Origin: Bacillus pumilus | GTDB lineage: Bacteria; Bacillota; Bacilli; Bacillales; Bacillaceae | Assembly (NCBI RefSeq): GCF_900186955.1 | Contig: NZ_LT906438.1 | Location: 3,286,001-3,350,000, forward strand | Reading direction: 5' to 3' | DNA: 64,000 bases | Shown here: piece after piece, positions 10,200 through 54,730 of the stretch | How the letters are laid out: the number at the start of each line of letters is the position of its first letter | Position numbering within the stretch: position 1 is the stretch's first letter | Position numbers and translations under genes: made by a program | Notes under the pieces: model-generated | Database searches by the model: none | Told to the model about the DNA's origin: nothing | Seen by the model: only the letters and a program-made list of their open reading frames with translations

Positions 10200-10955
10200 A
10201 TGAAGAAAATACTGAAGATCACAGGCATTTCATTACTTGCACTGATCATTTTGGCTTTTGGTGCTTTCTATACATGGAGCCGCTTTACATACGGACCATC
10301 TGCCGCTTTAAAAAAGCAAGTGAACATCGAGCAAGTGGAACATAAAAACGACGTATATACATTTGCATCAACTAAAAGCGATACGGGCATCATTCTCTAT
10401 CCAGGAGCAAAGGTAGAACCACTTTCGTACGCCTATATTGGGAATGAATTGATGAAAAAAGGCTATTCTGTCTTTATCCCTGACATGCCATTTTCGTTTG
10501 CGATTTTTAATACAAATAAAGCACAAGATATCATAAAAGATCATCAAACGATCAAACACTGGTATATTGGCGGTCATTCACTAGGCGGAACAGCCGCCGC
10601 TATGTTTGCAGAAAAAAACCAGCGCAAACTCGACGGTCTTTTTTTTCTCGCGTCTTATCCAGCTTCAGATGAGCTAAAATCATCCTCCTTGAACGTCCTC
10701 TCTATATCAGGTGAAAAGGATGGACTTGCGACACAAGAGAAAATCAAGCAATCGAAAACAAATTTGCCGTCTCAAACCGTTTATCATGAAATAAAAGGCG
10801 GGAACCATGCTCAGTTTGGCATGTATGGTAAACAAAAAGGTGATCAGCCAGCGGACATTCAAGCCCTCACACAGCAAAAGGATATCGTTCAGACGATGCT
10901 TGGATGGCTAAAACCAGCAAAAAAGCTCCATAAAGAAGACAAAGGGCTAAAATAA
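10200..10955 (+). CDS. Membrane-anchored alpha/beta hydrolase
   Basis: A 251-residue protein with an N-terminal TM anchor (about 6–27), then an alpha/beta-hydrolase fold with nucleophile elbow GGHSLGGTA, an SGEKDGLA strand carrying the likely acidic residue and GGNHAQFG carrying the catalytic His. The substrate is unknown. The start chosen is ATG at 10200 behind AAGAAGGG; an upstream in-frame ATG at 10134 adds 22 residues without a better site. The last codons (EDKGLK and stop) lie inside dispersed repeat copy C (10932–10984), so the C-terminus may be non-native. I recall no equivalent here in B. subtilis 168. Confidence 0.8.
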   Translation: MKKILKITGISLLALIILAFGAFYTWSRFTYGPSAALKKQVNIEQVEHKNDVYTFASTKSDTGIILYPGAKVEPLSYAYIGNELMKKGYSVFIPDMPFSFAIFNTNKAQDIIKDHQTIKHWYIGGHSLGGTAAAMFAEKNQRKLDGLFFLASYPASDELKSSSLNVLSISGEKDGLATQEKIKQSKTNLPSQTVYHEIKGGNHAQFGMYGKQKGDQPADIQALTQQKDIVQTMLGWLKPAKKLHKEDKGLK

Positions 10956-10984
10956 AGATCATTTTAACCCTTTGTCAACAATCT
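10932..10984 (-). repeat. Dispersed palindromic repeat, copy C
   Basis: Read on the minus strand: AGATTGTT, stem arm GACAAAGGGTTAAAAT, 7-nt loop, stem arm ATTTTAGCCCTTTGTC, TTCTTT. It matches copies A (52307–52363) and B (54679–54730). The imperfect pair is G·U on this strand but C·A on the other. It lies between convergent genes and overlaps the 3' end of the hydrolase gene. Confidence 0.9.
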
Positions 10985-11013
10985 AAAGCTTCCGTAATGG
11001 GGGTTTTTCATTT

Positions 11014-12807
11014 TCACTTTTTCGTCGCTTCTAAAAACTCTTCAGCGTCTGCTACAGCGAGGCTAATGGCTTCCTCCCAAAAGTCTTTTTGGGTAAGATC
11101 GACACCTAAGTGCTTAAAGGCCAAATCTTCTACTGTCATTGAAGCTGTGTCCTTTAATAATGCAATGTACTTTTCTTCAAACGAAGTACCAGCCTGCAAG
11201 GCCTTTGCATAAATTCCTAGTGAGAACATGTAGCCAAATGTGTACGGGAAATTATAAAACGGTACACCTGTGATATGGAAATGCAGCTTAGACGCCCAGA
11301 AATGCGGATGGTATTCATCTAGTGAGTCACCAAAGGCTTCTTTCTGCGCTTCTACCATCAGCTCATTCAACCGATCCGCCGGCACTTCTCCTTGTTTACG
11401 CTCTTCATAAAAACGCTGTTCAAATAAGAAACGAGATTGAATGTTCATGAAAAAAGCTACACTCCGCTGCAGCTTATCCTCTAACAAACTGAGGCGCTCC
11501 TCTTCATTTGCCGCTTCTTTCAATGAAGCATCAGCCACAATCATTTCTGCGAATGTCGACGCCGTTTCAGCTACATTCATCGCATATTTGCGATTAAGAA
11601 TGCGAACATCCTGCATCACTTCCTGATGGAACGAATGACCAAGCTCATGCGCAAGTGTCGCCACATTGGATGGACTTCCTGAGAAGGTCATAAAAATACG
11701 GGACTCTCCGCTGTCAGGGAAATTTGTACAAAAACCGCCTACTCGTTTGTTCGGGCGATCCTCAGCTTCTACCCAACGCTCATTAAAGGCCTTTTCTGTA
11801 AAAGCAGCAAGCTCTTCTCCAAACCCAGCGAAATGCTTCACAATAAAAGCAGCTGCTTCCTGATACGGATAGATCTTGGTCTCACTGCCAATAGGAGCCC
11901 CAACATCAAACCAGCTTAGCTTATCCACTCCAAGCATGTCAGCCTTTCGATGTAAATAATCAATGAATGGCTGCTTATGTTCATCAATCACAGACCACAT
12001 GGCATCAAGGGTTTCTTGTTTCATCCGGCAAATATCAAGCGGCTCTTTTAAGATATGATCCCAGCCTCTTGCTTCATATACTTGCAAACGAAAACCTGCC
12101 AAATGATTGAGCGTGCTTGCAAATAGATGTTCGTCCTGCGTCCATGCATGCTCTAGGTTATGATAAACAGCCTTTCTGACTTCACGGTCTGAATCATCCA
12201 TCGCATTTTCCGCTTGGCCGACAGAGATCATCTGCGTTTCACCATGTTGTTCAAATGGAATCGTAATCTTATTCACTAAGCTAGAATAAAGCTCATCCCA
12301 TGCATGGTAGCCATCTACGGCTAGCTTTTGAATCAATGTTTCTTGTTCAACAGGCAATTGATCCTTCACGCGTTCTCTGCGTTCATTTAATATGTAACGA
12401 ACATCTGAAAAGGCCTCTGAATTCATGAGATCCTCCCATTTTCCAGGAGAGATGGCAGCAAGCGCCTGATCAAACAGCGCAAGAATGGTACCTAAATCAG
12501 CTTCCAGCTTAGCAATCGTACCTCGAAGACTGCCAGCCTTCATATCCTTTGTATTTTGAGATTGAAGACAGGAAACAAATGAACCTGCTTGAGACAGTTT
12601 TTTATATGTGGTTTCATACGTGTCAAGGACAGACGTTAACCTATTCTCAATGTGTGTATCTTCTTTTGAAAAGGCATCGACCTTTTGTCGTAATTCATCT
12701 AATAGCTGCTGAATGTGTTGCAAGTATGTTTTAAATTCTGGTGAAGCGCTGCCTCCTTTAAAAAAGGCATCTAAATCCCACGTCTCTTGTAATGTTGTTA
12801 ATCCCAA
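11014..12807 (-). CDS. M3-family oligoendopeptidase (PepF-like)
   Basis: A 597-residue cytoplasmic zinc metallopeptidase. The M3 motif HELGHSFHQE (HExxH) lies at about residue 380, with the downstream NVAETASTFAE Glu ligand. The N-terminal helical region and FTEKAFNERWV resemble PepF/M3 clade proteins, which degrade short peptides. Start: TTG at 12807 (LGLTTLQETWDLDAFF) sits 7 nt after a strong AAAGGGGG site. An ATG at 12840 would add 11 residues but lacks a ribosome site. B. subtilis has a PepF-type protein (YjbG) elsewhere, so this may be a paralogue. Confidence 0.85.
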   Translation of the reverse strand: MGLTTLQETWDLDAFFKGGSASPEFKTYLQHIQQLLDELRQKVDAFSKEDTHIENRLTSVLDTYETTYKKLSQAGSFVSCLQSQNTKDMKAGSLRGTIAKLEADLGTILALFDQALAAISPGKWEDLMNSEAFSDVRYILNERRERVKDQLPVEQETLIQKLAVDGYHAWDELYSSLVNKITIPFEQHGETQMISVGQAENAMDDSDREVRKAVYHNLEHAWTQDEHLFASTLNHLAGFRLQVYEARGWDHILKEPLDICRMKQETLDAMWSVIDEHKQPFIDYLHRKADMLGVDKLSWFDVGAPIGSETKIYPYQEAAAFIVKHFAGFGEELAAFTEKAFNERWVEAEDRPNKRVGGFCTNFPDSGESRIFMTFSGSPSNVATLAHELGHSFHQEVMQDVRILNRKYAMNVAETASTFAEMIVADASLKEAANEEERLSLLEDKLQRSVAFFMNIQSRFLFEQRFYEERKQGEVPADRLNELMVEAQKEAFGDSLDEYHPHFWASKLHFHITGVPFYNFPYTFGYMFSLGIYAKALQAGTSFEEKYIALLKDTASMTVEDLAFKHLGVDLTQKDFWEEAISLAVADAEEFLEATKK

Positions 12808-12900
12808 AATATTTCCCCCTTTATTTGCTAATTTCATCATACAAAGGATATAGAGTCAGTATGGCGTATGTATTCCTTTATATTCATTATATTTTCTCAC

Positions 12901-12930
12901 AATAAAAAAAACCCGGCAAGAAGCCGAGTT
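12901..12930 (-). terminator. Terminator of prfB
   Basis: Minus-strand AACTCGGC/GCCGGGTT stem with a 5-nt loop and a run of eight T, immediately after the prfB stop. Confidence 0.85.
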
Positions 12931-12931
12931 T

Positions 12932-14033
<1,102 letters not shown>

Positions 14034-14097
14034 ATCCTTCACCTCATAGATGTAGGGCTGACATGAATAGAAAGAGGTTTTCACCTCTTTCCATTAC

Positions 14098-16623
14098 TTA
14101 TTCTGTCTTCCCATGACAATTTTTATATTTCTTGCCGCTTCCGCAGTGACATGGTGAGTTTCGACCAATGTCTACGACTTTACGTACCGGCTTCTTTTTC
14201 ACTGTCTTCTCCTCATCACCCTCTTGAGGCTGATGAGCTGTTGTTTGACCTTGAACGACTTCTTCACGTTCTAAGTTGTTTTGGATTTCTGATTTCAAAA
14301 CATATTTGGCCACATCATCTTCGATTGAAGCGACCATGTGCTCAAACATCGCAAATCCTTCCATTTGATACTCACGAAGCGGATTTGTTTGTGCATACGC
14401 ACGTAAATGAATCCCTTGACGCAGTTGATCCATTGCATCGATATGATCCATCCACTTTGAATCCACCGCACGAAGAACGATGACTTTTTCAAATTCTCGC
14501 ATTTGTTCGTCGCCATATGTTTCTTCTTTTGCATCGTATTTTTCTTTAATACGATCCATAATGAAGGAGGTGATTTCATCTGCTTCTTTACCGTAAACAT
14601 CCTTGACCGAAATGGCTCCTTCATCTAAATAGTTCGTGTTGATTAATTCAACAAGACCATCTAGTTTCCACTCTTCTGGAAGCTCTTCTTTCGGCGTATA
14701 AGAACCAACAGCGCGCTCAATTGAAGACTGAATCATATTGATCACAATCGATTTTAAGTTATCAGAATCAATGACTTCAAAGCGCTGCTTGTAAATCACT
14801 TCACGCTGCTGACGAAGCACATCGTCATATTGCAGAAGCTGTTTACGGGAATCAAAGTTGTTCCCCTCAACGCGTTTTTGAGATGATTCAACGGCTTTAG
14901 ACACCATTTTACTTTGGATAGGCGTAGTGTCATCCATGCCAAAGCGGTCAAGCATGGCCATCGTACGCTCTGCACCAAATCGACGCATCAATTCATCTTC
15001 CATGGAGAGATAGAATTGGGTAATCCCTGGGTCTCCTTGACGACCAGAACGTCCACGCAGCTGGTTATCAATACGTCGTGATTCATGACGCTCTGTCCCA
15101 ATTACAGCTAGACCGCCAAGCTCTTTGACGCCTTCGCCAAGCTTGATGTCCGTACCACGTCCTGCCATGTTGGTCGCAATGGTGACGGCACCCTTTTGAC
15201 CAGCCTCTTCAATAATTTGTGCCTCACGCTCATGGTTTTTCGCATTTAACACTTGATGAGGAATCCCTTTATTTTTAAGCAGCTTAGAAATAAGCTCAGA
15301 CGTCTCAACCGCTACTGTTCCGACAAGCACTGGTTGCCCTGTCATATAGCGCTGCGCAACATCTTCAGCCACTGCTTTAAATTTACCTTCCATTGTGCGG
15401 TAAATTAAATCAGGTCTGTCATCACGAACGACTGGTTGATTGGTCGGGATTGTCACAACCTGCATGTTGTAAATGTTACGGAATTCTTCTTCTTCCGTTT
15501 TCGCTGTACCCGTCATACCAGAAAGCTTTTCATACATGCGGAAGTAGTTCTGGAACGTAATCGTTGCAAGGGTCATGCTTTCGTTCTGCACTTCGAGACC
15601 TTCTTTTGCCTCAATGGCTTGATGCAGACCTTCACTATAACGGCGTCCTTTCATTAGACGTCCTGTGAACGAGTCAACAATAACGACTTGACCTTCTTCA
15701 ACGACATAATCCACATCTTTTTGCATCGCAACATGTGCCTTTAGCGCCTGGGCGATGTGATGGTTCAGTGCGACATGTTTGACATCAAATAAGTTTTCGA
15801 TGCCGAATGCTTTTTCCGCCTTCGTCATTCCACTTTCTGTCAGCTGTACACTTTTTGTTTTAATATCGTATGTGAAATCATCTTCTATTTTTAATGTACG
15901 AACAAATGCATTGGCTTGAACGTAAAGCTTTGTAGATTTCGCAGCTTGTCCAGAAATAATAAGAGGTGTTCTCGCTTCATCAACTAAGATGGAGTCAACC
16001 TCATCAATCACGGCATAATGAAGCGGTCTTTGAACCATTTGCTCTTTGTAAAGCACCATGTTATCTCGTAAATAGTCAAAGCCAAGTTCATTGTTTGTAG
16101 AATACGTAATATCAGCAGCATATGCTTCTCTTTTTTCATCTTTGTCTAAGCTGTTTAAGTTTAAGCCAACCGTTAAGCCAAGAAACTCAAAAATCTTGCC
16201 CATTTCCTCTGCATCACGGCTTGCCAAATATTCGTTGACTGTCACAATGTGGACGCCTTTTCCAGAAAGAGCATTTAAATAAACAGGCATTGTTGAAGTC
16301 AACGTTTTACCTTCACCTGTTTTCATCTCAGAGATGTTGCCTTCATGAAGCGCGATCCCCCCCATGAGCTGCACCTTAAATGGGAACATTCCTGTCACGC
16401 GGCGTGATGCCTCGCGAACCGTTGCAAATGCTTCAACCAACAGGTCATCCACGGATTGTCCTTTTTCAAGTTTTTCTTTAAATTCGTTCGTTTTATTTCG
16501 TAAAGCCTCGTCAGATAATTTCTCAAAATCTTGAGCAAGAGCTTCAATTTCATTTGCTTTTTTTTCATATTTGCTGATCGTACGTTTCGTAGGATCAAAC
16601 ACTTTGTTTAAGATTCCAAGCAT
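14098..16623 (-). CDS. secA: SecA, preprotein translocase ATPase
   Basis: An 841-residue motor of the Sec translocase, identical in length to B. subtilis SecA. Walker A is MKTGEGKT and the DEAD-type box is [14 protein letters not shown] and the [15 protein letters not shown] helicase motif are present, as is the C-terminal zinc/SecB-type motif [14 protein letters not shown]. The start at 16623 ([11 protein letters not shown]) follows GAGGAGCG; the open frame extends nine codons further upstream without support. It lies between hpf and prfB as in B. subtilis. Confidence 0.97.
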
Positions 16624-16746
16624 ATAATAACGCTCCTCTATTTCATGCAATTTTTCGGCATGTCCAAAAGATTGACAGGTCCATATTTACCTGCATTTAT
16701 CATACCATACCTTCCTTCATTTCCAAAGAATTTGCAATGATTTCGC

Positions 16747-16780
16747 ACAAAAAACCCGCCCCTCATGGAGGGAACGGGTT
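16747..16780 (-). terminator. Terminator of hpf
   Basis: Minus-strand stem AACCCG..CCCTC with GAGGGGCGGGTT, then a short T run. Confidence 0.7.
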
Positions 16781-16809
16781 TACTTTTTTTAGGTTGTTTT
16801 TAGATCTGA

Positions 16810-17373
16810 TTAAGCGTTCGGCTCAATCAGTCCATATTTTCCATCATTTCGGCGATAGACCACATTGGTCAAATTTGTCTCAGCATTTGTGAAGACGAAG
16901 AAACTATGACCTAACATGTTCATTTGAAGGATGGCCTCTTCGCTATCCATCGGTTTTAAATTGAAACGTTTTTGTCTGACGATTTCTGTTTCATCAATTT
17001 CTTCGTCATCTTGAACAGCTACATCAGCCGTCCCATTTCCTCCAGCAAATAAGTGCTTTTTGGCACCTTGTTCGCGGAATTTACGGTTTACTTTTGTTTT
17101 GTGTTTTCGAATTTGACGTTCTAATTTACTGGCTGCTAGGTCTACTGCATTGTACATATCTTCATTATGCACCTCAGCTCGAAGTGCTAGATCAGTCATT
17201 GGAATGGTAACCTCAACTTTAGATTCTTGATCATTGTAAAACTTCAAGTTCACGTTGACTGAAGCATCTACGTCTGTCTCAAAATAACGCTCCAGCTTTC
17301 CAATTTTTTTCTCGACATGATCTCTTAGTGCAGGTGTTACGTCGATGTTTTCTCCTCTGACATTGTAATTCAT
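16810..17373 (-). CDS. hpf: Long-form ribosome hibernation promoting factor (YvyD)
   Basis: A 187-residue long HPF. The N-terminal S30Ae domain (about 1–98, NYNVRGENIDVTPALRDHVEKK) is joined by a linker to a C-terminal dimerisation domain (about 130–187, ILQMNMLGHSFFVFTNAET). It dimerises 70S ribosomes into inactive 100S particles under stress or in stationary phase. ATG follows GGAGGCG. A promoter region with overlapping sigma-H- and sigma-B-like elements precedes it, as reported for B. subtilis yvyD. Confidence 0.95.
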   Translation of the reverse strand: MNYNVRGENIDVTPALRDHVEKKIGKLERYFETDVDASVNVNLKFYNDQESKVEVTIPMTDLALRAEVHNEDMYNAVDLAASKLERQIRKHKTKVNRKFREQGAKKHLFAGGNGTADVAVQDDEEIDETEIVRQKRFNLKPMDSEEAILQMNMLGHSFFVFTNAETNLTNVVYRRNDGKYGLIEPNA

Positions 17374-17412
17374 GTAAAGAACGCCTCCTTTAAAATTAAG
17401 GATATGTAAACC

Positions 17413-17448
17413 TATTTCTACTTTTCCCTCCTTTTCTCCTGCTCAAAC
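17413..17448 (-). promoter_or_regulatory. Overlapping sigma-H and sigma-B-like promoters of hpf
   Basis: Minus strand GCAGGAGAA–N12–GTAGAAATA fits sigma H (RNAGGAWWW–N12–RNNGAATWW) with two mismatches. Overlapping it, GTTTGA–N14–GGGAAA resembles sigma B (GTTTAA–N14–GGGTAT). B. subtilis yvyD is known to use both factors. Confidence 0.55.
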
Positions 17449-17562
17449 GTAAAAAAAATGTGAATTTTTATTGAAATTTGTCGAATTTTGCGGTGCATCA
17501 ACTGTTACTTGATAGGTGATGAATATATATTCGGCTCATTCTTGAAAAAGACCAGCGCACAT

Positions 17563-19248
17563 TTAAATGGTGAAAGATGATATTGATGTTTTCAGCGATT
17601 GAGATAAGGTTTTTAAATCCTCCGCCGCTGCTTTCATTTCTTCATTTGCTGCCAATGATTCTTCAACAGCCGCAGACATGTACTCCGTCTCTTCTGAATT
17701 GCGTTTGGCTCCTTCTTCAATGACCCCAACCGTCTGAGATATTTCCTCTGTACTAGCTGAAATCTCCTCTGCAGTAGCTGAAAGTTCCTCTGCTTTCATC
17801 GAAATATCACGAATAGATTCCAGGATTTCATGAAAGCTCTGTTCTGACAATTGCGATACTTTCACACCTTCTGCTACATCCTGCTCAACCTTTGTCATCG
17901 AATGTGATGATTTTTCAGTATCTTTGTTCACGTTCGCGAGCAATTGACTAATTTGATCTGTCAGCTGACTAGATTCTTCCGCCAGTTTCCTCACTTCATC
18001 TGCTACCACCGCAAAGCCTCTCCCATGCTCTCCTGCTCTTGCCGCTTCAATAGCAGCATTTAAAGCAAGCAAATTCGTTTGATCAGCGATGGCATGGATA
18101 TGACCTAACAAATCTTCAATGCCTGTAAACTGGGCTTGTACATGAGCCATTGTGGAATGGTGCTCGTTCACAGACGCTTTGATAGAGCTCATTTGTTTTA
18201 CGAATTGCTGAATAAGCGCTGCACCCTCTTCAGCCTTTTCAGTCACTGAAATTGAGTGACCCGAAACATCGGATGTGTGTTCAGCTGCATTTTGCATACC
18301 AGTCGAGACTTCTTGAATGGCAGAAGCTACTTTTCCGACCGCGTTTGATTGTTCACGTGAAGCTTCACTGACCTGTTCAATCGAGCTAGATGTCTGCTCA
18401 CTGGCAGATATGGTTTGATGAATCGTTTCCTCAAACTGAGCAGCAGAATCAGCTAATTGTCTTGATCCATGTTGCACCTGTAAAATGAGCTGACGCAAAT
18501 GCTTTGTCATTTGATTAAAAGCAGTACCGAGTTGACCAATCTCATTTTTAGAGGTCACTTCAATCTCTTCAAGTGTAAGGTCACCATCTGCCATCCTTCT
18601 CGCAGCATTTGTGACAGACACAATCGGCTTTGTCATACGATAAACGAATCTTGTCCCAATCAACAAAAAGCCAACAATAATGACCGCACTAACTAGAATG
18701 AGAGTGAATAGTAATTGATTACTGTCTTGGTTGAGCTGATTGATTTTTTGGTCACGTTGCTTCAACTGAGTTTGAGCAAATTCTTTTGTAAAGGTATGTA
18801 TTTCTTGTTCGATAGGTTGTAATTCTTGATTGAGGCGTGTGTTGAATTCTTTTTGATTTTGCATATTCAATGAATTAAATAGTCGGTTCGTTGAGGTGTA
18901 GTAGAGATAATTCTTTTCTGAGATTTGATCTAATAGATTTTTTGCTTGTTTGACAGAGCTCATTTTTGTAGCTTCCGTTGTTTTCTTATTAATCTCTTCA
19001 TATGTTTGCTCAATTTTCTGTAAATTTTCAGCATCTTGCACGACAACATATGTTTTAATTTGTGCTTCCTGTTTTTGCAAAAGCGCCTCTAATTCCAGTG
19101 AGGTTTGATAAAGCTTTACTTCTTTGCTAAGAAGCGTCTTATAGGATTGATCTGTTTTGTAATAGATAAAGCTTGAGAATCCTAAAATACTGACAAACAA
19201 TACACATATGACAATAAGCCCAAACAAAAATTGATTTTTTAGTCTCAT
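17563..19248 (-). CDS. Methyl-accepting chemotaxis protein
   Basis: A 561-residue chemoreceptor. TM1 is at about 7–29, an extracellular four-helix-bundle-type sensor spans about 30–178, TM2 is at about 179–202, HAMP follows (about 202–256), then a signalling domain whose hairpin tip reads [19 protein letters not shown]. Gln/Glu-rich methylation helices flank the tip. The ligand is unknown. The start ATG follows CGGAGGAAA. It stands downstream of fliT and a small unknown gene on the same strand, so it may be transcribed with the sigma-D fliD operon. I recall no chemoreceptor gene here in B. subtilis 168. Confidence 0.9.
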
Positions 19249-19280
19249 AATTTCCTCCGAAAGTCTGAATTGAACAAAAA

Positions 19281-19670: not shown

Positions 19671-19674
19671 CTAA

Positions 19675-20417: not shown

Positions 20418-20434
20418 ATGTTATAAACCTCCAA

Positions 20435-21964: not shown

Positions 21965-21984
21965 TTTTTATGTTCTCCCTTCAC

Positions 21985-22326: not shown

Positions 22327-22360
22327 AGTTATTCAGCTCCTGTGCTTTAATCTACCTTTT

Positions 22361-45517: not shown

Positions 45518-45535
45518 TTCTCTTCCCTACTTTAC

Positions 45536-46195
45536 TTATCTGGCTCCGTCACCCGTCATGATGACTTTTAACGTTTTTACCATAATCTTCGTGTCGAGAG
45601 AAAATGTCAAGTTTTGAATATAATGTAAGTCGTGTGTTAATTTTTCACTTGGACTCATTTCATATCCTCCATTTACTTGTGCAAGACCTGTCAGTCCCGG
45701 CTTGACCGTTAATCTTTTCGTAAAACCTGGAATCGTCCGATTAAATTCTGCGGTAAACATCGGTCTTTCCGGACGCGGACCTACGATACTCATTTCTCCT
45801 TTTAACACGTTGATGAATTGAGGGAGTTCATCGATTCTTGTTTTACGAATGAAGGCTCCCACTTTGGTGATACGTGGGTCGTTTTTTTGTGCCCATTTTG
45901 CTCCTCCGCTTTCAGCATCGGTTCTCATCGATCTGAGCTTCCATAATTTAAAGTAAACACCGTCTTTCCCGACCCTCTCCTGCATATAAAAGGCTGGTCC
46001 CGGTGTTTCCAGCTTAATCAAAAGAGCAAACAGCAAAATGATTGGCGTACTCAACATCAATCCGATGAACGAGAACATTAAATCTATGAAACGTTTTGCA
46101 AATAAATAACGAACCATATGTTCTGTTAAAGCAAAAGAGTGGTTTCGTCTCACTTCATATTCTCTATAAAGATTCATCGCTTTCTCTGCACTCAC
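45536..46195 (-). CDS. tuaA: TuaA, undecaprenyl-phosphate sugar phosphotransferase
   Basis: A bacterial sugar transferase (WbaP/PglC fold) that loads the first sugar-1-P onto undecaprenyl-P. Membrane helix FIDLMFSFIGLMLSTPIILL, then KLRSM, the KTRIDELPQFINVL motif and IVGPRPERP. Start chosen: GTG at 46195, 7 nt after GAGGTG; ATG at 46213 or 46177 are alternatives. First gene of the operon, behind PhoP boxes. Confidence 0.9.
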   Translation of the reverse strand: MSAEKAMNLYREYEVRRNHSFALTEHMVRYLFAKRFIDLMFSFIGLMLSTPIILLFALLIKLETPGPAFYMQERVGKDGVYFKLWKLRSMRTDAESGGAKWAQKNDPRITKVGAFIRKTRIDELPQFINVLKGEMSIVGPRPERPMFTAEFNRTIPGFTKRLTVKPGLTGLAQVNGGYEMSPSEKLTHDLHYIQNLTFSLDTKIMVKTLKVIMTGDGAR

Positions 46196-46268
46196 TGACC
46201 TGCACCTCACCATTCAAAGTAGTTGTTGTGTAAAGAGATGTTCTATGAAAGTCAGTTTAGCAGAGCAA

Positions 46269-46316
46269 CATTAAGCAAATGTAAATGCGCTGTTAAGTCT
46301 TGTAAAACTGTGTTAA
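46269..46316 (-). promoter_or_regulatory. Tandem PhoP boxes of the tua operon
   Basis: Minus strand reads five boxes: TTAACA (46316–46311), TTTACA (46306–46301), TTAACA (46296–46291), TTTACA (46285–46280), TTAATG (46274–46269), with start-to-start spacing of 10, 10, 11 and 11 bp. This is the known PhoP~P array (TTAACA-like repeats). A TAAACT -10 candidate follows at 46260–46255. It implies phosphate-starvation activation. Confidence 0.9.
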
Positions 46317-46354
46317 GAATGTGCACTTATATCAAGTTATGCCCTTTTCAACGT

Positions 46355-46380
46355 AAAAAAGACCCGCAATTCTGCGGGTC
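46355..46380 (-). terminator. Terminator of the LytA-like lipoprotein gene
   Basis: Minus-strand GACCCGCAGA/(A)TTGCGGGTC hairpin and six T, between lipoprotein gene and tua. Confidence 0.9.
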
Positions 46381-46394
46381 TCCGGGTCTTTTCT

Positions 46395-46973
46395 TTATTT
46401 TGCTTTAACAGATTCGATCGTTTTTAATCGAAGGGTTCCGTTTGCATCTTTTGTATAAGTGACTTTCACTTTTGATTCTTCTTTTAAGCTGTTCACTTGT
46501 TTAGAAAACGTATTTCCGAATTGAATAGCGACTTCTTTGCCATCAATGTTCACAGCAATGGTATGTCCATCAGCCAAGCCGACATATGTGCCTTCCTTGG
46601 TGACTTCATTTTTCTTATTTGTTGTTGATTCTTTCTTTGTTTTAGATTCAGCTTTTGATTGTTCCTTAGTAGGTTCTTCTTTTGTGATTTCTTTACTTGA
46701 GCTGTCTTTTGCGTCTTCATCAGATTGACCAGATTGCTCTTCTTTTGGAGCAACTGTTTCTTTGCTTTGATCATCTGCTTTTTCATTTGATGACTCATCT
46801 TCTGTTTTTTCCTTTTTCTCTGAAGCATTTTCTTTCTTTTGATCAGCTGCTTCGGTTGTTTCCTTTTTGCTATCATCCTTATTGTTGTCGCTTGATTGAT
46901 TTGTTGTGCCGCATGCTGTGAGTAGTACACCTAGAAGCAATACTAGAAACGGCATTGTGATTAATTTTTTCAA
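46395..46973 (-). CDS. LytA-related lipoprotein with acidic Lys/Glu/Ser linker
   Basis: A 192-residue lipoprotein. Signal and lipobox (PFLVLLLGVLLTACG) are nearly those of LytA in this window (PFLILLLGIVLTACG). A highly charged low-complexity linker (about 25–115) follows, then a C-terminal domain (TYVGLADGHTIAVNI…VTYTKDANG) aligning with the LytA C-terminus (EFIGMADAHTVEV…ISYFINDSG). TTG start at 46973 behind GAGGTG. Probably a LytA paralogue at the end of lytABC. Role unknown; it may anchor or localise autolysin components. Confidence 0.8.
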   Translation of the reverse strand: MKKLITMPFLVLLLGVLLTACGTTNQSSDNNKDDSKKETTEAADQKKENASEKKEKTEDESSNEKADDQSKETVAPKEEQSGQSDEDAKDSSSKEITKEEPTKEQSKAESKTKKESTTNKKNEVTKEGTYVGLADGHTIAVNIDGKEVAIQFGNTFSKQVNSLKEESKVKVTYTKDANGTLRLKTIESVKAK

Positions 46974-47130
46974 AATTGTCACCTCTTCATGATTTGTCGA
47001 TTGGCTGTCGCTTAGATTCATGCGTAAACCATTCACCTTTTATGTTTCAATTATAACAAAGATAACTAGAAATGAAATGTATTTTTAACTTGACACATTA
47101 TTGATGACCCGATCACTTCATAGACTTTTG

Positions 47131-47165
47131 AAAAAAGGCTGCCGAGAGACGTTCTCGAGCAGCCT
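47131..47165 (-). terminator. Terminator of lytABC
   Basis: Minus-strand AGGCTGC.CGAGA with TCTCGGCAGCCT, then six T. Confidence 0.9.
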
Positions 47166-47204
47166 AAGAGGAGTATCTGAGGCACCCCTCATGTTTGTAT
47201 TTTC

Positions 47205-48698
47205 TTATCTAAAGTAACCTGACACACCGCTTGAAATGCCTGACGCTAAACGATCTTTATACGTAGCCGATTTCAAGATGTTTGAATCAACTGGACTTGA
47301 CACAAAACCAGTTTCTAAAAGAACACTCGGCATTTTAGAATATTTAATCACGTAGAATCCAGCTGTTTTCACACCACGGTCTCTTGTACCAAGTGCACTG
47401 ACCATTTTCGGCTGAATGTTTTGCGCAAGCTTCAAGCTGTTTGCAGACGCATATGTTTTGTCATAATACGTTTCTGTTCCGTTTGCACTGCTGTTATCAT
47501 TTGAGTTTGCATGGACACTGATGAAGATATCTGCATTTGCTGACGCACCTTTGCTCACTCGTGTTTGAAGACTGTCAAATGTGTCTGATGTTCTTGACAT
47601 GGTAACAAGTGCACCCGCGTTGTTTAATTTCGTATTTAAACGCTTGGCTACATCTAAATTCAAGTTCTTTTCATATAACCCGTAGCCTACAGCTCCTGAA
47701 TCATGTGCGCCATGACCTGGGTCAATGAATACTTTTTTCCCGACGACAGGGTTTTTCAATTGATTCACGACAGTTGGTGTCACCGTATTTGCACTGCCTA
47801 CGACAGTAAATTTGGTGATTTTTTTACCGCTAATGGTTGCTCTTGTTACTTTTGGTAATGTTTTTTCATTCGTTAGAAGCAATGCTTTGTTTTGCTTCGC
47901 TGCGATCCCTGCAGCAGAAGATGAAGTGGCGTAGCCAAACCCTCTTCCTACATAGGTATTGTTCGTGCTCATATTATACTTTTTCACAATATTAGCGGCA
48001 ACGTCATAACGAGTGGAGCCTTTAATTCGTGTTGGAGATTTCAATTGATTATAAGCTGCTTTTGTGACGTAATTTTCTCCGCCGACTACAATGGTTTGTT
48101 TGACATTGCTTGCTTTTGCAACAGATGCGATTTCAGAACGAAGTCCCTTTTTATCTGTGTAGAGAATCGGGAAACCTTTTTGTGCTGCTACCGGTGCAAT
48201 TGCAATCCCATGAGCATAGAAGGAACCTTCAACGACAACGACGCCTGCTGGCTTTTTCATTTTCTTCGCGATATTTGCAGATAGCTCATATCGATTTTTT
48301 CCTGAAATACGTTGTGTAGAGATGCCCATCTTCTTCACTTCATTGATTACGTTATTTGACACACTTGATGTACTGCCTAAAACGATCACTGTCTTTGTTT
48401 TTAAAGCCTTTAGGGCTTTTTTCGTATCACCTGAAAGACTCTTACTGTTTGTATAAAGAACTGGTCCATTTTTTTGGTGTGCAAGTGGAATCCCTGCTGT
48501 TGCATCTGCATACGCAGTTTTCCCTACTATTACGACTGTACTTGCAGTTCCCCATCCCTTTTTCGCTACGTTTGCTGCTACAGCATATCTGCTTCCGCCA
48601 TCAATTCGTGAGACTGAATTATCTGCTGAAGCTGTTGGAACAATAACGAAAATGGCGATGAGGCTGAGGATGGCTGTTTTCATGATTGAGCGCATCAT
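47205..48698 (-). CDS. lytC: LytC, N-acetylmuramoyl-L-alanine amidase
   Basis: A 497-residue autolysin. Signal peptide ending TASA (about 1–25), three cell-wall-binding type 2 repeats (about 30–310, each with R..G..RY..A..I) and a C-terminal Amidase_3 domain. Zinc and catalytic motifs are FIDPGHGAHDSG, the Glu of LYEKNLNLD, SVHANS and LLETGF. Cleaves the amide bond between MurNAc and the stem peptide. Last gene of lytA–lytB–lytC; ATG behind AAAGGAGG. Confidence 0.95.
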   Translation of the reverse strand: MMRSIMKTAILSLIAIFVIVPTASADNSVSRIDGGSRYAVAANVAKKGWGTASTVVIVGKTAYADATAGIPLAHQKNGPVLYTNSKSLSGDTKKALKALKTKTVIVLGSTSSVSNNVINEVKKMGISTQRISGKNRYELSANIAKKMKKPAGVVVVEGSFYAHGIAIAPVAAQKGFPILYTDKKGLRSEIASVAKASNVKQTIVVGGENYVTKAAYNQLKSPTRIKGSTRYDVAANIVKKYNMSTNNTYVGRGFGYATSSSAAGIAAKQNKALLLTNEKTLPKVTRATISGKKITKFTVVGSANTVTPTVVNQLKNPVVGKKVFIDPGHGAHDSGAVGYGLYEKNLNLDVAKRLNTKLNNAGALVTMSRTSDTFDSLQTRVSKGASANADIFISVHANSNDNSSANGTETYYDKTYASANSLKLAQNIQPKMVSALGTRDRGVKTAGFYVIKYSKMPSVLLETGFVSSPVDSNILKSATYKDRLASGISSGVSGYFR

Positions 48699-48718
48699 CT
48701 ATGTCCTCCTTTAACCCT

Positions 48719-50827
48719 TTAATAGTTTGTTAGTTTTGTACCTGGATAGTAGAACGAAAGTATGGAAGAATATGAGTTTCCAGATTCTGCTCTAGCTTTG
48801 GCACCGTATTGGCTCATGCCAATGCCGTGACCATATCCTTTTCCTGAAATCGTAAAGTCATTTGTATTGTTTTTGACTGACGCAAATGTGCTCTTCACCT
48901 TTGTTGCGCCCATGATGGATCTAAACTCGGTCATCTTCATACTTGCCGTTGTACTTTTGTTTACTGCATATGTGCCTGTTTTATTTTTCAGATGATATGT
49001 CAGCTTGATTGATACCGTCTTCGCACGTTGGCCTTTTGTTTTTCCTGAGAACGTCAGGCTTGAGATGGATGCAATCTTCATATCAGATGCAGCTGTTTCT
49101 TTGTTTTTGAGCAGCCATGATTTGAGACCAGCAAGATCCGTTGCATTTGTCTCTTTTGCCTTAGACCACTGAGATGCTGCTGTACTAGCAGTCAATGTTG
49201 TGCCTAGCTGTTTTTTAGAGAGTTTTAATGTCCATGCATTGACCGGATCTTTTGTATCCTTTTTGGCCACTAAGTACGGCAGTGCATTTGCCCACACTTC
49301 TTCACTTGCCTCTGTATATCCACCATTACTAGAATAATAGGTGGCTGAAATGAGCTGATTGTTGTATTTCAGTACTTTCCCTTTTGTGGCATCGACAGCT
49401 TTTGTCGAATTTGTGTACCAGTTATATCCTCCATATACTTGGAAGGCAGTTGTATCAGGTACGACTTTTCCAATACTTTTCACTGAATACGTTCTAGCGG
49501 CCACTGCCTGTGCTTTTAGCGCTTCAACATGCCAGCTTGCAGGCATTTCATTTGGTACCACGCCTTTTAGATAGTCTTCAAATGGAATATTTTCGAGAGT
49601 CGGCCTGATATAACCTGATTCAATTGCAAAGTTGACGCTGCCTAGGTAAGGCTTCCCTGCAATTTGAAGGATATTTTTCGTTGAATATTTCTCAGGAACA
49701 ACTCTTACATTGTTATACGTCTTTATGCCTTTTAATGAAATTTTTCCGTTAGAAATATTCAATTGGTAGTTTTGATTTTTTTTCAGATAGACTTGTTTGG
49801 CTAATGAGTTCTTCAAGCTATCTTTAATCGCACTTGTGCTACCAGCAAGGTGATAAGCATATGTACCCTTTTCTTTCAGCAGTTTTTTTAGTGACGCTGT
49901 GACAGAATCCGGTTTCACATACACAACAGTACTATTAGACTTTGCAGCCAATTGAGACAGCGGCATAGCATAAATATAGCTAGAGGCTTTTGCCAAATAA
50001 ACTTTATCTGCATTGATATTTAATTTCTTCATTATATTCACAGAGAGTTCATAGCGATTGGCACCACTGATTCTTGTTACCTGTGACGTTTTTTTAATTT
50101 GATTCTCTACTTTTTGTCCCGTACTTTTCGTACTGCCGATGATGATGACTTTGCTTGGCAGCTTGTAAGACGGAATGGAATCTTTTTTTGTTAACAGGAT
50201 TGGGTATCCCTTTCTCGATGCATAGGATGCAATCGCAATCCCATTCATAAATGAGTTTCCACCGACAACGACAGCTTGCTTATAGTTACCCATTTCTTTA
50301 GCAATTTTTTGGGAGATTTCAAACTTGTCTTTTCCACTAATGCGTCTGACTTTCCCATACTTTTTAATAGATTTCTCAGCAGCTGTTGAAATGCTTTTCG
50401 TGTTACCAACGATCAGGATGTTATCCGGCTTCATTTTCTTCAGCTGGTTTTCAGTTGTTTTTGTTAGTTTTTCAATGTTTGTATACAAAATGGGTGCGCC
50501 TAGTTTGTAAGCTAACGGTGATACAGAAATGGCATGATCAAATGCATCACGGCTCACAATGACAACTGTTGATGGATTCTTCCAGCCGGCAGACGCGATG
50601 CTATTGGCAACTTCGTATCGATTTTTGCCATCATATCTTTTCGTGACAGCCACATTCGATCCTGACAGCTTGTATTCTCCAGCTGTGGATAGATCCATCG
50701 TTTTTTTATTTCCGATATAATTAGACAATTTCACTGAAATTGTCGAGCTAGCCATGGCAGACTGAAAGGGTGCGATTAGTAGAGTCATTGTCATGAGAAC
50801 AATAAGTGTAACGCCTGTTTTCTTCAA
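48719..50827 (-). CDS. lytB: LytB, amidase enhancer with SpoIID domain
   Basis: A 702-residue exported protein: signal peptide, three cell-wall-binding type 2 repeats (about 60–345) and a SpoIID domain (about 400–700, with PNEMPASWHVEALKAQAVAA, YYSSNGG and GYGHGIGMSQYGA). LytB enhances LytC activity in B. subtilis. TTG start behind GGCGGGATGA. Confidence 0.94.
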   Translation of the reverse strand: MKKTGVTLIVLMTMTLLIAPFQSAMASSTISVKLSNYIGNKKTMDLSTAGEYKLSGSNVAVTKRYDGKNRYEVANSIASAGWKNPSTVVIVSRDAFDHAISVSPLAYKLGAPILYTNIEKLTKTTENQLKKMKPDNILIVGNTKSISTAAEKSIKKYGKVRRISGKDKFEISQKIAKEMGNYKQAVVVGGNSFMNGIAIASYASRKGYPILLTKKDSIPSYKLPSKVIIIGSTKSTGQKVENQIKKTSQVTRISGANRYELSVNIMKKLNINADKVYLAKASSYIYAMPLSQLAAKSNSTVVYVKPDSVTASLKKLLKEKGTYAYHLAGSTSAIKDSLKNSLAKQVYLKKNQNYQLNISNGKISLKGIKTYNNVRVVPEKYSTKNILQIAGKPYLGSVNFAIESGYIRPTLENIPFEDYLKGVVPNEMPASWHVEALKAQAVAARTYSVKSIGKVVPDTTAFQVYGGYNWYTNSTKAVDATKGKVLKYNNQLISATYYSSNGGYTEASEEVWANALPYLVAKKDTKDPVNAWTLKLSKKQLGTTLTASTAASQWSKAKETNATDLAGLKSWLLKNKETAASDMKIASISSLTFSGKTKGQRAKTVSIKLTYHLKNKTGTYAVNKSTTASMKMTEFRSIMGATKVKSTFASVKNNTNDFTISGKGYGHGIGMSQYGAKARAESGNSYSSILSFYYPGTKLTNY

Positions 50828-50851
50828 TTTTGTTCATCCCGCCCATCTTTT

Positions 50852-51175
50852 TTACTTCTGTTTTTCAATCTTTTGAATTTCCTTTTGACCACTGTCATTG
50901 ATAAAGTAAGAGATTTCTACTTTGTCTCCTGGTTTGAATTCATTTAACACATCTTTAAAATTATCCGTAAATTCATAGCTTAAGGTCGTATTCACTTTTT
51001 TCACTTCGACTGTATGTGCATCAGCCATTCCAATAAATTCAGCTTTTTCTTCCAGCACCTGAGGAGTTGAACTGCTTGTGTTGTTTTCTCCCGAGGACTG
51101 CTCAGCCGTTCCACATGCTGTGAGCACGATACCAAGTAGTAGTATTAAGAACGGTAAAACGACGATTTTCTTCAT
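50852..51175 (-). CDS. lytA: LytA, small lipoprotein of the lytABC operon
   Basis: A 107-residue lipoprotein with lipobox LTACG and an acidic linker, as in B. subtilis LytA (about 102 residues). Thought to help LytB/LytC secretion or placement. ATG at 51175 is 6–7 nt after GAGGTG; a GTG three codons upstream overlaps that site. Confidence 0.9.
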   Translation of the reverse strand: MKKIVVLPFLILLLGIVLTACGTAEQSSGENNTSSSTPQVLEEKAEFIGMADAHTVEVKKVNTTLSYEFTDNFKDVLNEFKPGDKVEISYFINDSGQKEIQKIEKQK

Positions 51176-51195
51176 TTTTTTCACCTCATGTCTTT

Positions 51196-51221
51196 GTATC
51201 GTCTTATAACTTAATATTTTA
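51196..51221 (-). promoter_or_regulatory. Possible sigma-D promoter of lytABC
   Basis: Minus strand TAAA–N14–GACGATAC (two mismatches in -10). It lies very close to the start, leaving a leader of about 14 nt, which weakens it; B. subtilis lytABC is known to be sigma-D dependent. Confidence 0.35.
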
Positions 51222-51231
51222 AGGTAAATTT

Positions 51232-51255
51232 AAGGTTTTTTGAAACCTTTTTTTT
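51232..51255 (+). terminator. Terminator-like hairpin upstream of tagU
   Basis: AAGGTTT/AAACCTT stem, TTTG loop and eight T, on the plus strand in the lytA–tagU divergent region and before the tagU promoter. It may block antisense or readthrough transcription. Confidence 0.6.
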
Positions 51256-51295
51256 GTTACAACGTCTATATCTAGGTTCAGAGTAAAAAAATAAC

Positions 51296-51324
51296 TTGTT
51301 TATCAAGATTCGTAAACCTATAAT
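51296..51324 (+). promoter_or_regulatory. Sigma-A promoter of tagU
   Basis: TTGTTT–N17–TATAAT, about 34 nt upstream of the tagU ATG. Confidence 0.8.
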
Positions 51325-51357
51325 CATGGAAGAATCATAGAAAAGGTGAGGGACATT

Positions 51358-52278
51358 ATGAGAGCTGAAAGAAAACGAAAGAAGAAAAAGGTTCTTTGGA
51401 TTGTTTTATCGATTATTGGCTTATTCGTATTAGCAACTGGCGGATATGCATATCATCTTTGGAATACAGCAGCATCAACCGTGGCAGGCATTCAGGAGAA
51501 TTTAAAGAAGTCAGATAAGCGTGACAAAGATGTCGATTTAAATAAGAAAGACCCGATTTCTATTTTAGTCATGGGTGTTGATGAAAGAAAAAATGACCGC
51601 GGCCGTGCGGATACATTAATATACATGACCGTTAACCCAAAAACCAAAACGACTGAGATGGTGAGTATCCCGCGTGATACGTATACGAAAATTGTCGGAA
51701 AAGGCACAATGGATAAAATCAACCACTCCTATGCATTCGGCGGCACACAAATGGCAGCTGATACTGTAGAGGAATTGCTTGATGTACCTGTTGATTACTT
51801 CGTGAAAGTCAATATGGAAAGCTTTAAGGATATTGTCGATACACTTGGCGGCATTACAGTGAACAGCACATTAGCTTTCAGCTATGATGGTCATTCATTT
51901 GGTACAGGAGAAATTAATCTAAATGGCGATCAAGCCCTCGCCTACACAAGAATGAGAAAACAAGATCCAAAGGGTGACTTCGGACGTCAGCAAAGGCAGC
52001 GTCAAGTCATTGAAGGCATCATTGCTAAAGGGGCAAACATTTCATCTATTACGAAGTTCGGCGATATGTTCAAAGTCGTGGAAAACAATATGAAGACTAA
52101 TATGTCATTTGATGATATGTGGACGATGATGAATGACTACCGTGACGCAAGACAGCGTGTGAAGCAGCACGAGCTGAAAGGAACGGGAGCACGCATCAAT
52201 AATATCTATTATTATCAGCTTGATGATAGCAGTTTGGCTAAAGTGAAGAAGGAATTGAAGGACAGTTTGGAGCAGTAA
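51358..52278 (+). CDS. tagU: TagU (LytR), LytR-CpsA-Psr transferase
   Basis: A 306-residue LCP enzyme. Basic N-terminus and TM (about 10–33), then GRADTLIYMTVNP, SIPRDTYTKIVG and RMRKQDPKGDFGRQQRQ. Attaches wall teichoic acid to peptidoglycan; in B. subtilis LytR was also reported to attenuate lytABC. Divergent from lytA. ATG at 51358 behind AAGGTGAG; a GTG four codons upstream is the alternative. Confidence 0.93.
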   Translation: MRAERKRKKKKVLWIVLSIIGLFVLATGGYAYHLWNTAASTVAGIQENLKKSDKRDKDVDLNKKDPISILVMGVDERKNDRGRADTLIYMTVNPKTKTTEMVSIPRDTYTKIVGKGTMDKINHSYAFGGTQMAADTVEELLDVPVDYFVKVNMESFKDIVDTLGGITVNSTLAFSYDGHSFGTGEINLNGDQALAYTRMRKQDPKGDFGRQQRQRQVIEGIIAKGANISSITKFGDMFKVVENNMKTNMSFDDMWTMMNDYRDARQRVKQHELKGTGARINNIYYYQLDDSSLAKVKKELKDSLEQ

Positions 52279-52306
52279 AAAAAGAAGACTACATGAATGT
52301 AGTCTC
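52279..52306 (-). terminator. mnaA-side terminator hairpin
   Basis: AGACTACAT/ATGTAGTCT hairpin; on the minus strand it is followed by TCTTTTTTT. On the plus strand its expected T-tract is displaced by repeat copy A. Confidence 0.75.
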
Positions 52307-52363
52307 AGATTGTTGACAAAGGGCTAAAATGGTTTTTATTTTAGCTCTTTGTCTTCTTTTTTT
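52307..52363 (+). repeat. Dispersed palindromic repeat, copy A
   Basis: AGATTGTT, GACAAAGGGCTAAAAT, loop GGTTTTT, ATTTTAGCTCTTTGTC, TTCTTTTTTT. One G·U pair when read on this strand (A·C on the other). Between convergent tagU and mnaA. Confidence 0.9.
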
Positions 52364-53501
52364 ATGATTTAAATGGGGCAGGTTTTTCTTCACTTAATCC
52401 AAATCGATGGAGGAGCTCCTCGACAATTCGTCTCGATGCTTGTCCGTCACCATAAGGGTTAGACGCCTTAGACATGCTGTCATACTCCTTCTGATCTACT
52501 AGCAGCTCTTTAGCCATTTTGTAAATGGTCTCTTCATCCGTACCTGCAAGCTTAAGTGTGCCTGCTTTCACGCCTTCTGGACGTTCTGTTGTATCACGGA
52601 GCACTAAAACTGGCTTCCCTAGAGAAGGCGCCTCCTCTTGTACACCGCCAGAATCCGTTAAGATAAAGTGCGAAGCGGCAGCAAAGTTATGGAAATCAAC
52701 GACTTCAAGCGGTTCAATTAAGTGTACACGATCGAGACCGCTAAATTCTGTCTGAGCTGCATCACGTACGGCAGGGTTTAAATGAACAGGATAAACGACC
52801 TGAACATCTTCAAACTCTTCTACAACACGTCTAATGGCTCTAAACATATTTTTCATCGGCTGGCCGAGATTCTCTCTGCGGTGGGCCGTTAACAAAATCA
52901 TTTTATCCGTGCCTATTTTCTCTAAAATAGGGTGCTGATAATGCTCAGTAACTGTAGTTTGCAGGGCATCAATCGCTGTATTCCCTGTCACACAAATGGT
53001 CTCTTCTTTTTTATTTTCAATTAAAAGATTCTGCTTCGCTTCCTCTGTAGGAGAGAAATGAATATCGGCAATAATGCCTGTCATTTGACGGTTCAATTCC
53101 TCTGGGAACGGCGAATACTTATTGTGTGTTCTCAATCCTGCTTCGACGTGCCCAACTGAAATTTGGTGATAAAATGCTGCCAAGCTTCCTGCAAAGGTTG
53201 TTGTAGTATCCCCATGGACAAGGACAATATCAGGTTTTTCTTCTTGGAATAATTGGTCTAGCTTTAACAGTGCATTTGATGTGATTTCAGATAATGTCTG
53301 GCGCTGCTTCATGATGTTTAAATCATGATCTGGCGTAATTGAAAAAGCCTCAAGAACTTGATCAAGCATTTCTCTGTGCTGGGCTGTCACAGTGACAATC
53401 GAATTTATCAGTGGATGTTTATTTAATTCAAGGACAAGTGGTGCCATTTTGATCGCTTCAGGTCTAGTACCGAAAATAGTCATTACATTTAGTTTTTTCA
53501 C
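52362..53501 (-). CDS. mnaA: MnaA, UDP-GlcNAc 2-epimerase
   Basis: A 379-residue non-hydrolysing epimerase making UDP-ManNAc for the teichoic acid linkage unit. FGTRPEAIKMAPLV, VHGDTTTT, GHVEAGLRT and TDSGGVQEEAPSLG motifs. Start GTG at 53501 (VKKLNVMTIFG) behind GAGGATT, matching B. subtilis; the frame runs 15 codons further upstream. Confidence 0.95.
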   Translation of the reverse strand: MKKLNVMTIFGTRPEAIKMAPLVLELNKHPLINSIVTVTAQHREMLDQVLEAFSITPDHDLNIMKQRQTLSEITSNALLKLDQLFQEEKPDIVLVHGDTTTTFAGSLAAFYHQISVGHVEAGLRTHNKYSPFPEELNRQMTGIIADIHFSPTEEAKQNLLIENKKEETICVTGNTAIDALQTTVTEHYQHPILEKIGTDKMILLTAHRRENLGQPMKNMFRAIRRVVEEFEDVQVVYPVHLNPAVRDAAQTEFSGLDRVHLIEPLEVVDFHNFAAASHFILTDSGGVQEEAPSLGKPVLVLRDTTERPEGVKAGTLKLAGTDEETIYKMAKELLVDQKEYDSMSKASNPYGDGQASRRIVEELLHRFGLSEEKPAPFKS

Positions 53502-53770
53502 TTGTTTAATCCTCTTTCCTAGTATAGTACTTTCAATTATACACAATTTGGAGGATAAATTTAATGGTATAAAAAAAGAAATTTACATTGAATTAACGTT
53601 AAATTTCTCTTTCCTTTACATTTAACATATAAAATATGAATTATCTAAAATTCATTTTAGTGAAATCATTTGTCTTTCCTATGATTTGTAAGTTACACTT
53701 TAAACAGACGACCAAGAACAAACATTGAGTGATTAAATCGGTTATCTATGTAAGGAAGGTGCAAAGTTCA

Positions 53771-54652
53771 TTGAAAAAAGTACGTAAAGCCATTATACCA
53801 GCTGCAGGTCTTGGGACACGTTTCCTCCCTGCAACAAAAGCTATGCCTAAAGAAATGCTGCCAATCGTTGATAAACCAACCATTCAATATATTATTGAAG
53901 AAGCTGTTGAATCAGGAATTGAAGACATTATTATCGTCACTGGAAAAGGAAAAAGAGCCATTGAGGATCATTTTGATTTTGCACCAGAGCTAGAGCGCAA
54001 CCTAGAGGAAAAAGGGAAGAGCGAGCTTCTAGAGAAGGTGAGAAAATCCTCTAACATTGCTGACATTCATTACATACGTCAAAAGGAACCTAAAGGACTT
54101 GGACACGCTGTTTGGTGCGCACGCAATTTTATCGGTGATGAGCCATTCGCCGTTTTATTAGGCGATGATATTGTTCAAGCTCAAACACCTGGGCTTCGCC
54201 AGCTGATGGATGAATACGAAAAGACCCTTTCATCTGTGATCGGTGTTCAGCAGGTAGCAGACAGCGATACGCATCGCTACGGGATCATCGACCCTCTTAC
54301 ACAAGAAGGACGCCGCTACCAAGTGAAAAACTTTGTAGAAAAGCCGCCGCAAGGTACAGCACCATCCAATCTAGCCATCTTAGGACGATACATTTTCACA
54401 CCAGAGATTTTTATGTACCTTGATCAGCAAGAAATTGGTGCAGGCGGGGAAATTCAACTGACAGATGCCATCCAAAAGCTGAATGATATCCAGCGTGTAT
54501 TCGCCTATGATTTTGAAGGAAAACGATACGATGTTGGTGAGAAGCAAGGATTCATCGAGACGACTCTCGAGTTTGCCCTTCAAGATGAGGATCTAAAAAA
54601 GAAACTCATTCCATTTATGAAACAGCTTCTCGAAAAAGAAGAAGCGAATTAA
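53771..54652 (+). CDS. gtaB: GtaB, UTP–glucose-1-phosphate uridylyltransferase
   Basis: A 293-residue enzyme making UDP-glucose for TuaD, teichoic acid glucosylation and glycolipids. Motif [23 protein letters not shown] at 53771 behind AAGGTG gives the B. subtilis N-terminus ([10 protein letters not shown]). The 269-nt AT-rich region upstream holds the promoter, not resolved here. Confidence 0.95.
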
Positions 54653-54678
54653 AAAAAGCTGCCGGAATCGGCAGCTTT
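54653..54678 (+). terminator. gtaB terminator hairpin (left copy)
   Basis: AAAGCTGCCG/CGGCAGCTTT with GAAT loop. The plus-strand T-tract is cut to three T by the adjoining repeat, while the minus strand keeps seven T. Near-identical to the hairpin at 54853–54880. Confidence 0.85.
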
Positions 54679-54730
54679 AGATTGTTGACAAAGTGCTAAA
54701 ATGATTTTTATTTTAGCACTTTGTCTTCTT
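54679..54730 (+). repeat. Dispersed palindromic repeat, copy B
   Basis: AGATTGTT, GACAAAGTGCTAAAAT, loop GATTTTT, ATTTTAGCACTTTGTC, TTCTT. Stem fully Watson–Crick, with U-A where copies A and C have G·U and G-C. Confidence 0.92.

Follow-up and report, generated by a model that had tools for sequence, protein, structure and literature searches.

A hairpin repeat that occurs three times (copies A, B and C) in a 64,000-nucleotide stretch of the Bacillus pumilus genome is, very probably, the left end of a 174-bp miniature inverted-repeat transposable element (MITE) that has ends of the IS1182 kind, inserts at transcription terminator hairpins and duplicates the target stem-loop, as judged from sequence. 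The stretch, hereafter the window, comprises positions 3286001–3350000 of the genome (G000), which is a single contig of 3,855,667 bases.

Extent and copy number of the element

Copies A, B and C lie at the coordinates and on the strands given in a preliminary description of the window, and the core sequence matches the window three times without mismatch, as compared to a mean of 0.00 in 100 shuffles. That description had proposed a multi-copy palindromic family, and a 39-bp pattern allowing at most 3 mismatches bore this out, finding 52 places in G000 (reversed control, 0). It had also treated the hairpin as a unit in its own right, which the flanks of 30 copies contradict: past the T-rich tail of the hairpin, shared sequence goes on for another ~120 bp and ends in ..GGGTTTGTCTACACGCTG. 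Pairing of the two ends across 60 G000 loci yielded 50 elements, mostly 174 bp long (a few left boundaries being extrapolated), as well as 7 further left-end matches without a right end, among them copies A and C. A stand-alone RNA family was rejected, the hairpin belonging to a longer element whose ends are IS1182-like.

Within the window, copy B carries both ends; the preliminary description had overlooked that it runs on to position 54852 within this longer repeat. Its parts and the sequences that adjoin it are as follows:

54656–54678, no strand assigned: left-hand one of the two terminator stem-loop copies that form the target-site duplication, terminator-like on the − strand
54679–54852, + strand: copy B, full-length 174-bp MITE, with left end AGATTGTTGACAAAG and right end ..GTTTGTCTACACGCTG; empty site in G028, G004, G022 and G042
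54687–54725, + strand: left-end hairpin of copy B, with a 16-bp stem and a 7-nt loop, then TTCTTTT; terminator-like on the + strand only
54733–54852, + strand: right part of copy B, folding as a single long imperfect hairpin, CAGCGTGATAGAAAACC ... GGTTTGTCTACACGCTG
54853–54875, no strand assigned: right-hand one of the two terminator stem-loop copies, carrying a T run

The folding of the right part is visible on both strands, a 116-base stretch of it (54739–54854) giving z = −2.63 on the + strand and −3.35 on the − strand. The element carries no transposase gene and is too short to hold one. Its absence from known families, as first described, was upheld: Rfam gave 0 matches at the gathering score in the window, and the 16 matches around copy B were every one below that score (best E 0.00085). 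Nor did a search of open-licence PubMed Central text by topic and sequence words, a scope to which subscription papers and ISfinder do not belong, return any description of the repeat.

Variant forms also occur. In some elements the left hairpin is missing or altered; at one locus (L116, G000:C1:2493680-2496718) it is of quite different sequence with its pairing retained, as read by eye. A ~41-bp minimal derivative in B. zhangzhouensis (L306, NZ_JOTP01000048.1) consists of the two element ends only, with the duplicated terminator still around it.

Terminator stem-loops are duplicated at insertions

Using a local alignment score of at least 15 between left and right flanks as the threshold, we found a stem-loop duplicated on both sides of 43 of the 50 G000 elements, as compared to 9 of 2450 mismatched left/right flank pairs. 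These duplications are 16–41 bp long (median 25); 22 of the 43 are perfect, and in 37 a single hairpin covers the duplication to within 4 nt. Elements with a recognised hairpin, in regions picked by the right end, pass the same threshold in other genomes as well (27 of 38 in G001, 17 of 20 in G004, 5 of 5 in G012, 3 of 4 in G005 and 3 of 3 in G010); 15 entries, G000 included, were excluded from this count for having no right-part start or no hairpin.

Two Bacillus insertion sequences (IS) of the IS1182 family, IS-A and IS-B, have ends related to those of the MITE, use the same kind of target and duplicate the stem-loop in the same way, but are ~1.5 kb long and carry a transposase gene. Among 25 distinct two-ended IS-A and IS-B insertions, some with broken transposase genes, 20 have a duplication scoring at least 15, and all 20 duplications fold as hairpins, three of them (L067, L079 and L389) weakly. 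The remaining five comprise three with shorter abutting repeats, one diverged and one adjoining another IS.

Taking the 43 MITE and 20 IS duplications together, longer core hairpins in the target go with longer duplications (Spearman 0.63, P = 3e-8, n = 63), and the outermost G-C pair lies 0–4 nt inside the duplication edge in 54 of 63 insertions on the left and in 50 of 63 on the right; 11 of the 63 are outliers by the analysis window. Both the edge positions and the length correlation are consistent with strand transfer to an extruded hairpin at its two 5' feet.

One terminator (L072, G000:C1:1970645-1974001) holds both a MITE and an IS-B with an open transposase gene, so that three stem-loop copies stand in a row. 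Another (L019/L020, G000:C1:3376773-3377144) holds a tandem pair of MITEs, also with three stem-loop copies.

Empty and occupied sites in relatives

At site B, the element is missing and one terminator stands alone in four relatives (G028, G004, G022 and G042), while the window has terminator, element and terminator in succession; as these relatives were chosen for an earlier right-flank match without the element, the comparison shows the empty site and not its frequency. The preliminary description had overlooked that a terminator hairpin adjoins each of the three copies and is duplicated around B. The features at sites A and C are:

52286–52305, no strand assigned: stem-loop of the terminator on the left side of copy A, the one target-site copy present
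52307–52363, + strand: copy A, a left-end remnant comprising AGATTGTT, the hairpin at 52315–52353 and a T-rich tail, without the right half
10932–10984, − strand: copy C, a left-end remnant with its hairpin at 10938–10976
10985–11007, no strand assigned: remaining terminator stem-loop adjoining copy C
10134–10955, + strand: alpha/beta hydrolase open reading frame (ORF), its C-terminal end inside the copy C remnant

In the same four relatives, site C is a single terminator in three, and G022 carries a full-length element in the same orientation; copy C of the window is therefore a remnant. Copy A, in which a T run directly follows the left hairpin, probably reached its remnant state by deletion. 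Site A is empty in two of the relatives and is occupied by a 1548-bp IS1182-family element in G028 and by a reversed, hairpin-only piece in G022. Since the contents of site A differ between relatives, one terminator has been used more than once.

Distribution in the genus

The right end of the element is widespread: a pattern allowing at most 1 mismatch matches in 35 of 44 Bacillus genomes, with up to 75 matches in one of them (G001; reversed control, 0). For the hairpin itself, a pattern stricter than the 39-bp one finds copies in 17 of the 44. Among the matches listed are B. pumilus, B. altitudinis, B. safensis, B. xiamenensis, B. zhangzhouensis, B. australimaris and B. stratosphericus, and also B. 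paralicheniformis, B. haynesii, B. swezeyi, B. glycinifermentans, B. spizizenii, B. inaquosorum and B. tequilensis. The 81 right-end matches found in the 80 listed of 120 stretches divide into 46 full MITEs, 9 right parts without a recognised left end, 22 matches at contig edges and 4 further forms with rearrangements or deletions. One locus (L085, in G012) was considered as an autonomous element with the right end of the MITE and rejected, since it consists of a MITE and, next to it, a distinct IS1182 with an internal deletion.

Element ends and their likeness to IS1182

The ends of the MITE, CAGATTGTTGACAAAG and CAGCGTGTAGACAAAC, are imperfect inverted repeats of each other, identical at 12 of 16 positions when the variable first base of the left end (T in copies B and C, C in copy A) is set to C. 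IS-A (L062 and L064; also L362) has the ends CAGCTTGTAGACAAAG and CAGACCGTAGACAAAC, which flank a 452-aa transposase that matches the IS1182 family model NF033551 at E 6.7e-143; the transposase of IS-B (L072 and others) matches it at E 2.3e-145. The left ends of the MITE and IS-A agree at 13 of 15 positions without the first base and at 14 of 16 if it is taken as C; for the right ends the figure is 13 of 16. The IS-A left end, too, contains a hairpin with a T run, visible by eye (not folded). Pfam DDE_Tnp_1_6 matches occur in 34 of the 44 genomes.

A number of observations weigh against this reading of the element. Firstly, IS-B, which is intact in G000, matches the MITE ends at 11–13 of 16 positions, and its right end scores the same 13 of 16 as that of IS-A; the parent is therefore not fixed on IS-A, and both are candidates. 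Secondly, beyond the ends BLAST found no significant MITE sequence shared with IS-A or IS-B (best E 0.027). Thirdly, an intact IS-A transposase is present in 2 of 44 genomes (G020 and G021), and G000 holds it only as a 125-aa, 77%-identical fragment with stops. Fourthly, no autonomous element with exactly the MITE ends was found among the 81 right-end matches, 59 of which show no transposase layout, the other 22 being those at contig edges. Lastly, 7 of the 50 G000 elements fall below the duplication threshold, as do 11 of the 38 in G001.

A model for insertion at terminators

We envisage that a putative DDE transposase of the IS1182 type, supplied in trans, would move the MITE. Because unrelated target sequences share a hairpin, the transposase would recognise its target by hairpin or cruciform shape and not by sequence, intrinsic terminators at gene ends being the targets in practice. 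The element ends would join the two 5' feet of the extruded stem-loop, and gap repair would then leave one terminator stem-loop on either side; of this route, the duplications and the empty sites are directly observed. The element brings a terminator-like hairpin of its own as well: in line with the direction favoured by the preliminary description, the terminator-like form of the left hairpin exists on the AGATTGTT-first strand only (the + strand of the element). With this hairpin in place, and with the outer A and T runs remaining on the outside of each terminator copy, insertion should keep both neighbouring genes terminated, to judge from the anatomy. Copies A and C are remnants that retain the left-end hairpin alone, the latter also supplying the last residues of a neighbouring protein.

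More generally, we put forward, with slightly less than even confidence, that IS1182-family transposition in Bacillus works without a fixed stagger, the target hairpin setting the duplication length through 5'-foot transfers on a cruciform. The MITE, which copies the terminator and adds a terminator-like end, would exploit this by inserting at gene ends without unterminating them, giving rise to tens of copies per genome and to solo hairpins that serve as new terminators and protein tails.

The closest published relative is IS1272, and the MITE is a further case of a known kind of system. IS1272 and TnSha1 of staphylococci also belong to the IS1182 family and have structure-directed hairpin targets, some of them terminators (PMC5678879, PMC4923244). 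By contrast, the target stem-loop of IS1272/TnSha1 is reportedly deleted (PMC4923244) or replaced, without being duplicated, and in the Figure 13 legend and Discussion of the IS1272 paper duplication of a whole stem-loop is drawn only as an alternative pathway, b (PMC5678879); the Bacillus MITE, which lacks a transposase, does not replace its target stem-loop but duplicates it. IS1182-related transposases are described as acting with or without target duplication and as possibly recognising target structure (PMC12056078), and given that source some of the present picture may already be known to specialists.

Other short repeats share some features with the MITE. The bcr repeats of the B. cereus group are short mobile Bacillus repeats that can be likened to it by description, not by sequence. 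The same holds for the pneumococcal SPRITE, BOX and RUP repeats, which are short and multi-copy, with one class terminator-like, but belong to another genus; the part of their description available to us does not mention stem-loop duplication (PMC10969869).

The 63 insertions amount to a natural record of transposition that DNA shape apparently directs, duplication length varying with the target hairpin; for IS1272 such an outcome had figured as an alternative pathway only. The element accounts for a repeat whose right end is found across most of the genus genomes, and it will go on turning up in Bacillus whenever terminators are called or covariation is searched for. It also illustrates how the ends of a transposon can turn into terminators and C-terminal tails.

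Stem pairing and the possibility of a host RNA

A different explanation is that the repeat is a host-encoded RNA element (a selected terminator, a 3'-end stability element or a regulatory RNA) that spread through its usefulness. To this we turn with the stem itself, whose states are as previously described: position 8 pairs as G·T in copy A, T-A in B and G-C in C, and position 10 as T·G in C. Our covariation sample consisted of 95 distinct left ends, equal to 43 distinct arm pairs, with kinship ignored. In agreement with the compensatory change claimed for the stem, 8 of 16 pairs are altered on both sides (shuffle mean 4.71), and standard pairs fill 96.2% of stem cells as compared to 86.4% when the 3' letters are shuffled (shuffle maximum 88.7%). 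For the pumilus type alone the corresponding values are 95.8% and 94.0% (shuffle maximum 95.5%); as this contrast is small, the covariation signal lies mostly between species groups. Pairing of the left hairpin is under constraint.

The preliminary description had further claimed that wobble pairs form on one strand exclusively, and here it did not hold. The 43 arm pairs contain 17 G·U and 8 A·C cells (one-sided P = 0.054 against 1:1), and a second sample of 54 distinct arm pairs, some with arms out of register, contains 23 and 13 (P = 0.066). A smaller initial set of 18 distinct pumilus-type arms has 9 G·U and 2 A·C; with more copies included, the counts in G004 are 4 and 5. We rejected exclusive strand-specific wobble since A·C cells are present and the G·U excess shrinks with more copies. 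As a mutational control, the right part of the element shows no excess of C-to-T over G-to-A changes (78 of 2195 C as compared to 150 of 3210 G), but such an excess is seen in the left part together with its loop (60 of 771 as compared to 15 of 773); mutation bias may thus lie behind the wobble asymmetry.

A host RNA would fit the terminator-like form on a single strand, the retention of the hairpin through double changes and the greater number of G·U than A·C cells. We nevertheless consider it improbable, as the presence of the repeat varies between relatives, its copies come with a duplicated target, the hairpin continues into a conserved right half with ends like those of a transposon, IS-A by eye also has a T-run hairpin at its left end, and the strand bias of the wobbles is weak.

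Orientation and other modes of mobility

All three window copies lie between convergent ORFs, as had been noted; as a rule for the family this fails, the setting being common and not universal. Judged by flanking ORFs, 26 of the 50 two-ended elements are in convergent settings, 16 have both genes running right-to-left in the orientation of the element, 5 have both running left-to-right, 2 are between divergent genes and 1 could not be resolved. Replication direction, taken from the GC skew of the loci (sign change near 1.8 Mb), is opposed by 40 of the 50 elements. Among the 43 elements with duplications, A to the left of the left copy exceeds T to the right of the right copy in 23, the reverse holds in 6 and 14 are ties, suggesting that elements tend to lie with the left end towards the T run of the right-hand gene's terminator. 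Terminator polarity accounts for part of the replication-orientation bias, but 21 of the 26 elements in convergent settings also oppose replication, so that a separate replication-strand effect may exist.

This bias, together with the asymmetric 5' tag carried by the hairpin, would fit an element of the repetitive extragenic palindrome (REP) and REP-associated tyrosine transposase (RAYT) type, moved by an HUH (Y1) transposase via single-stranded DNA of the lagging strand. Such a system is very improbable and we rejected it: G000 gave 0 matches to Y1_Tnp (PF01797), a family that the control search found in 5 of 14 known genomes, the long duplications and IS1182-like ends do not fit it, and the orientation bias partly follows terminator polarity. 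Least credible of all is a retro-mechanism resembling that of group IIC introns, which likewise insert beside terminators, given that insertion here duplicates the target and that the Rfam result for the window, in which no search was aimed at reverse transcriptases, was empty at the gathering score.

Neighbouring genes of the window copies

According to Pfam matches, copy A lies between genes for a LytR-CpsA-Psr protein and a UDP-GlcNAc 2-epimerase, copy B between those for a nucleotidyltransferase and an ABC transporter ATPase, and copy C between those for the alpha/beta hydrolase and an M3 peptidase. Within the left-end hairpin, the + strand of the element reads as a promoter-like TTGACA-18-TATTTT (54685–54714, 52313–52342 and 10949–10978), which may be due to chance.

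At copy C, the hydrolase ends in ..KKLHKEDKGLK, its last seven residues (KEDKGLK) and stop codon coming from the remnant; in the four relatives examined, the same hydrolase stops earlier and ends in ..K(K/N)LP.

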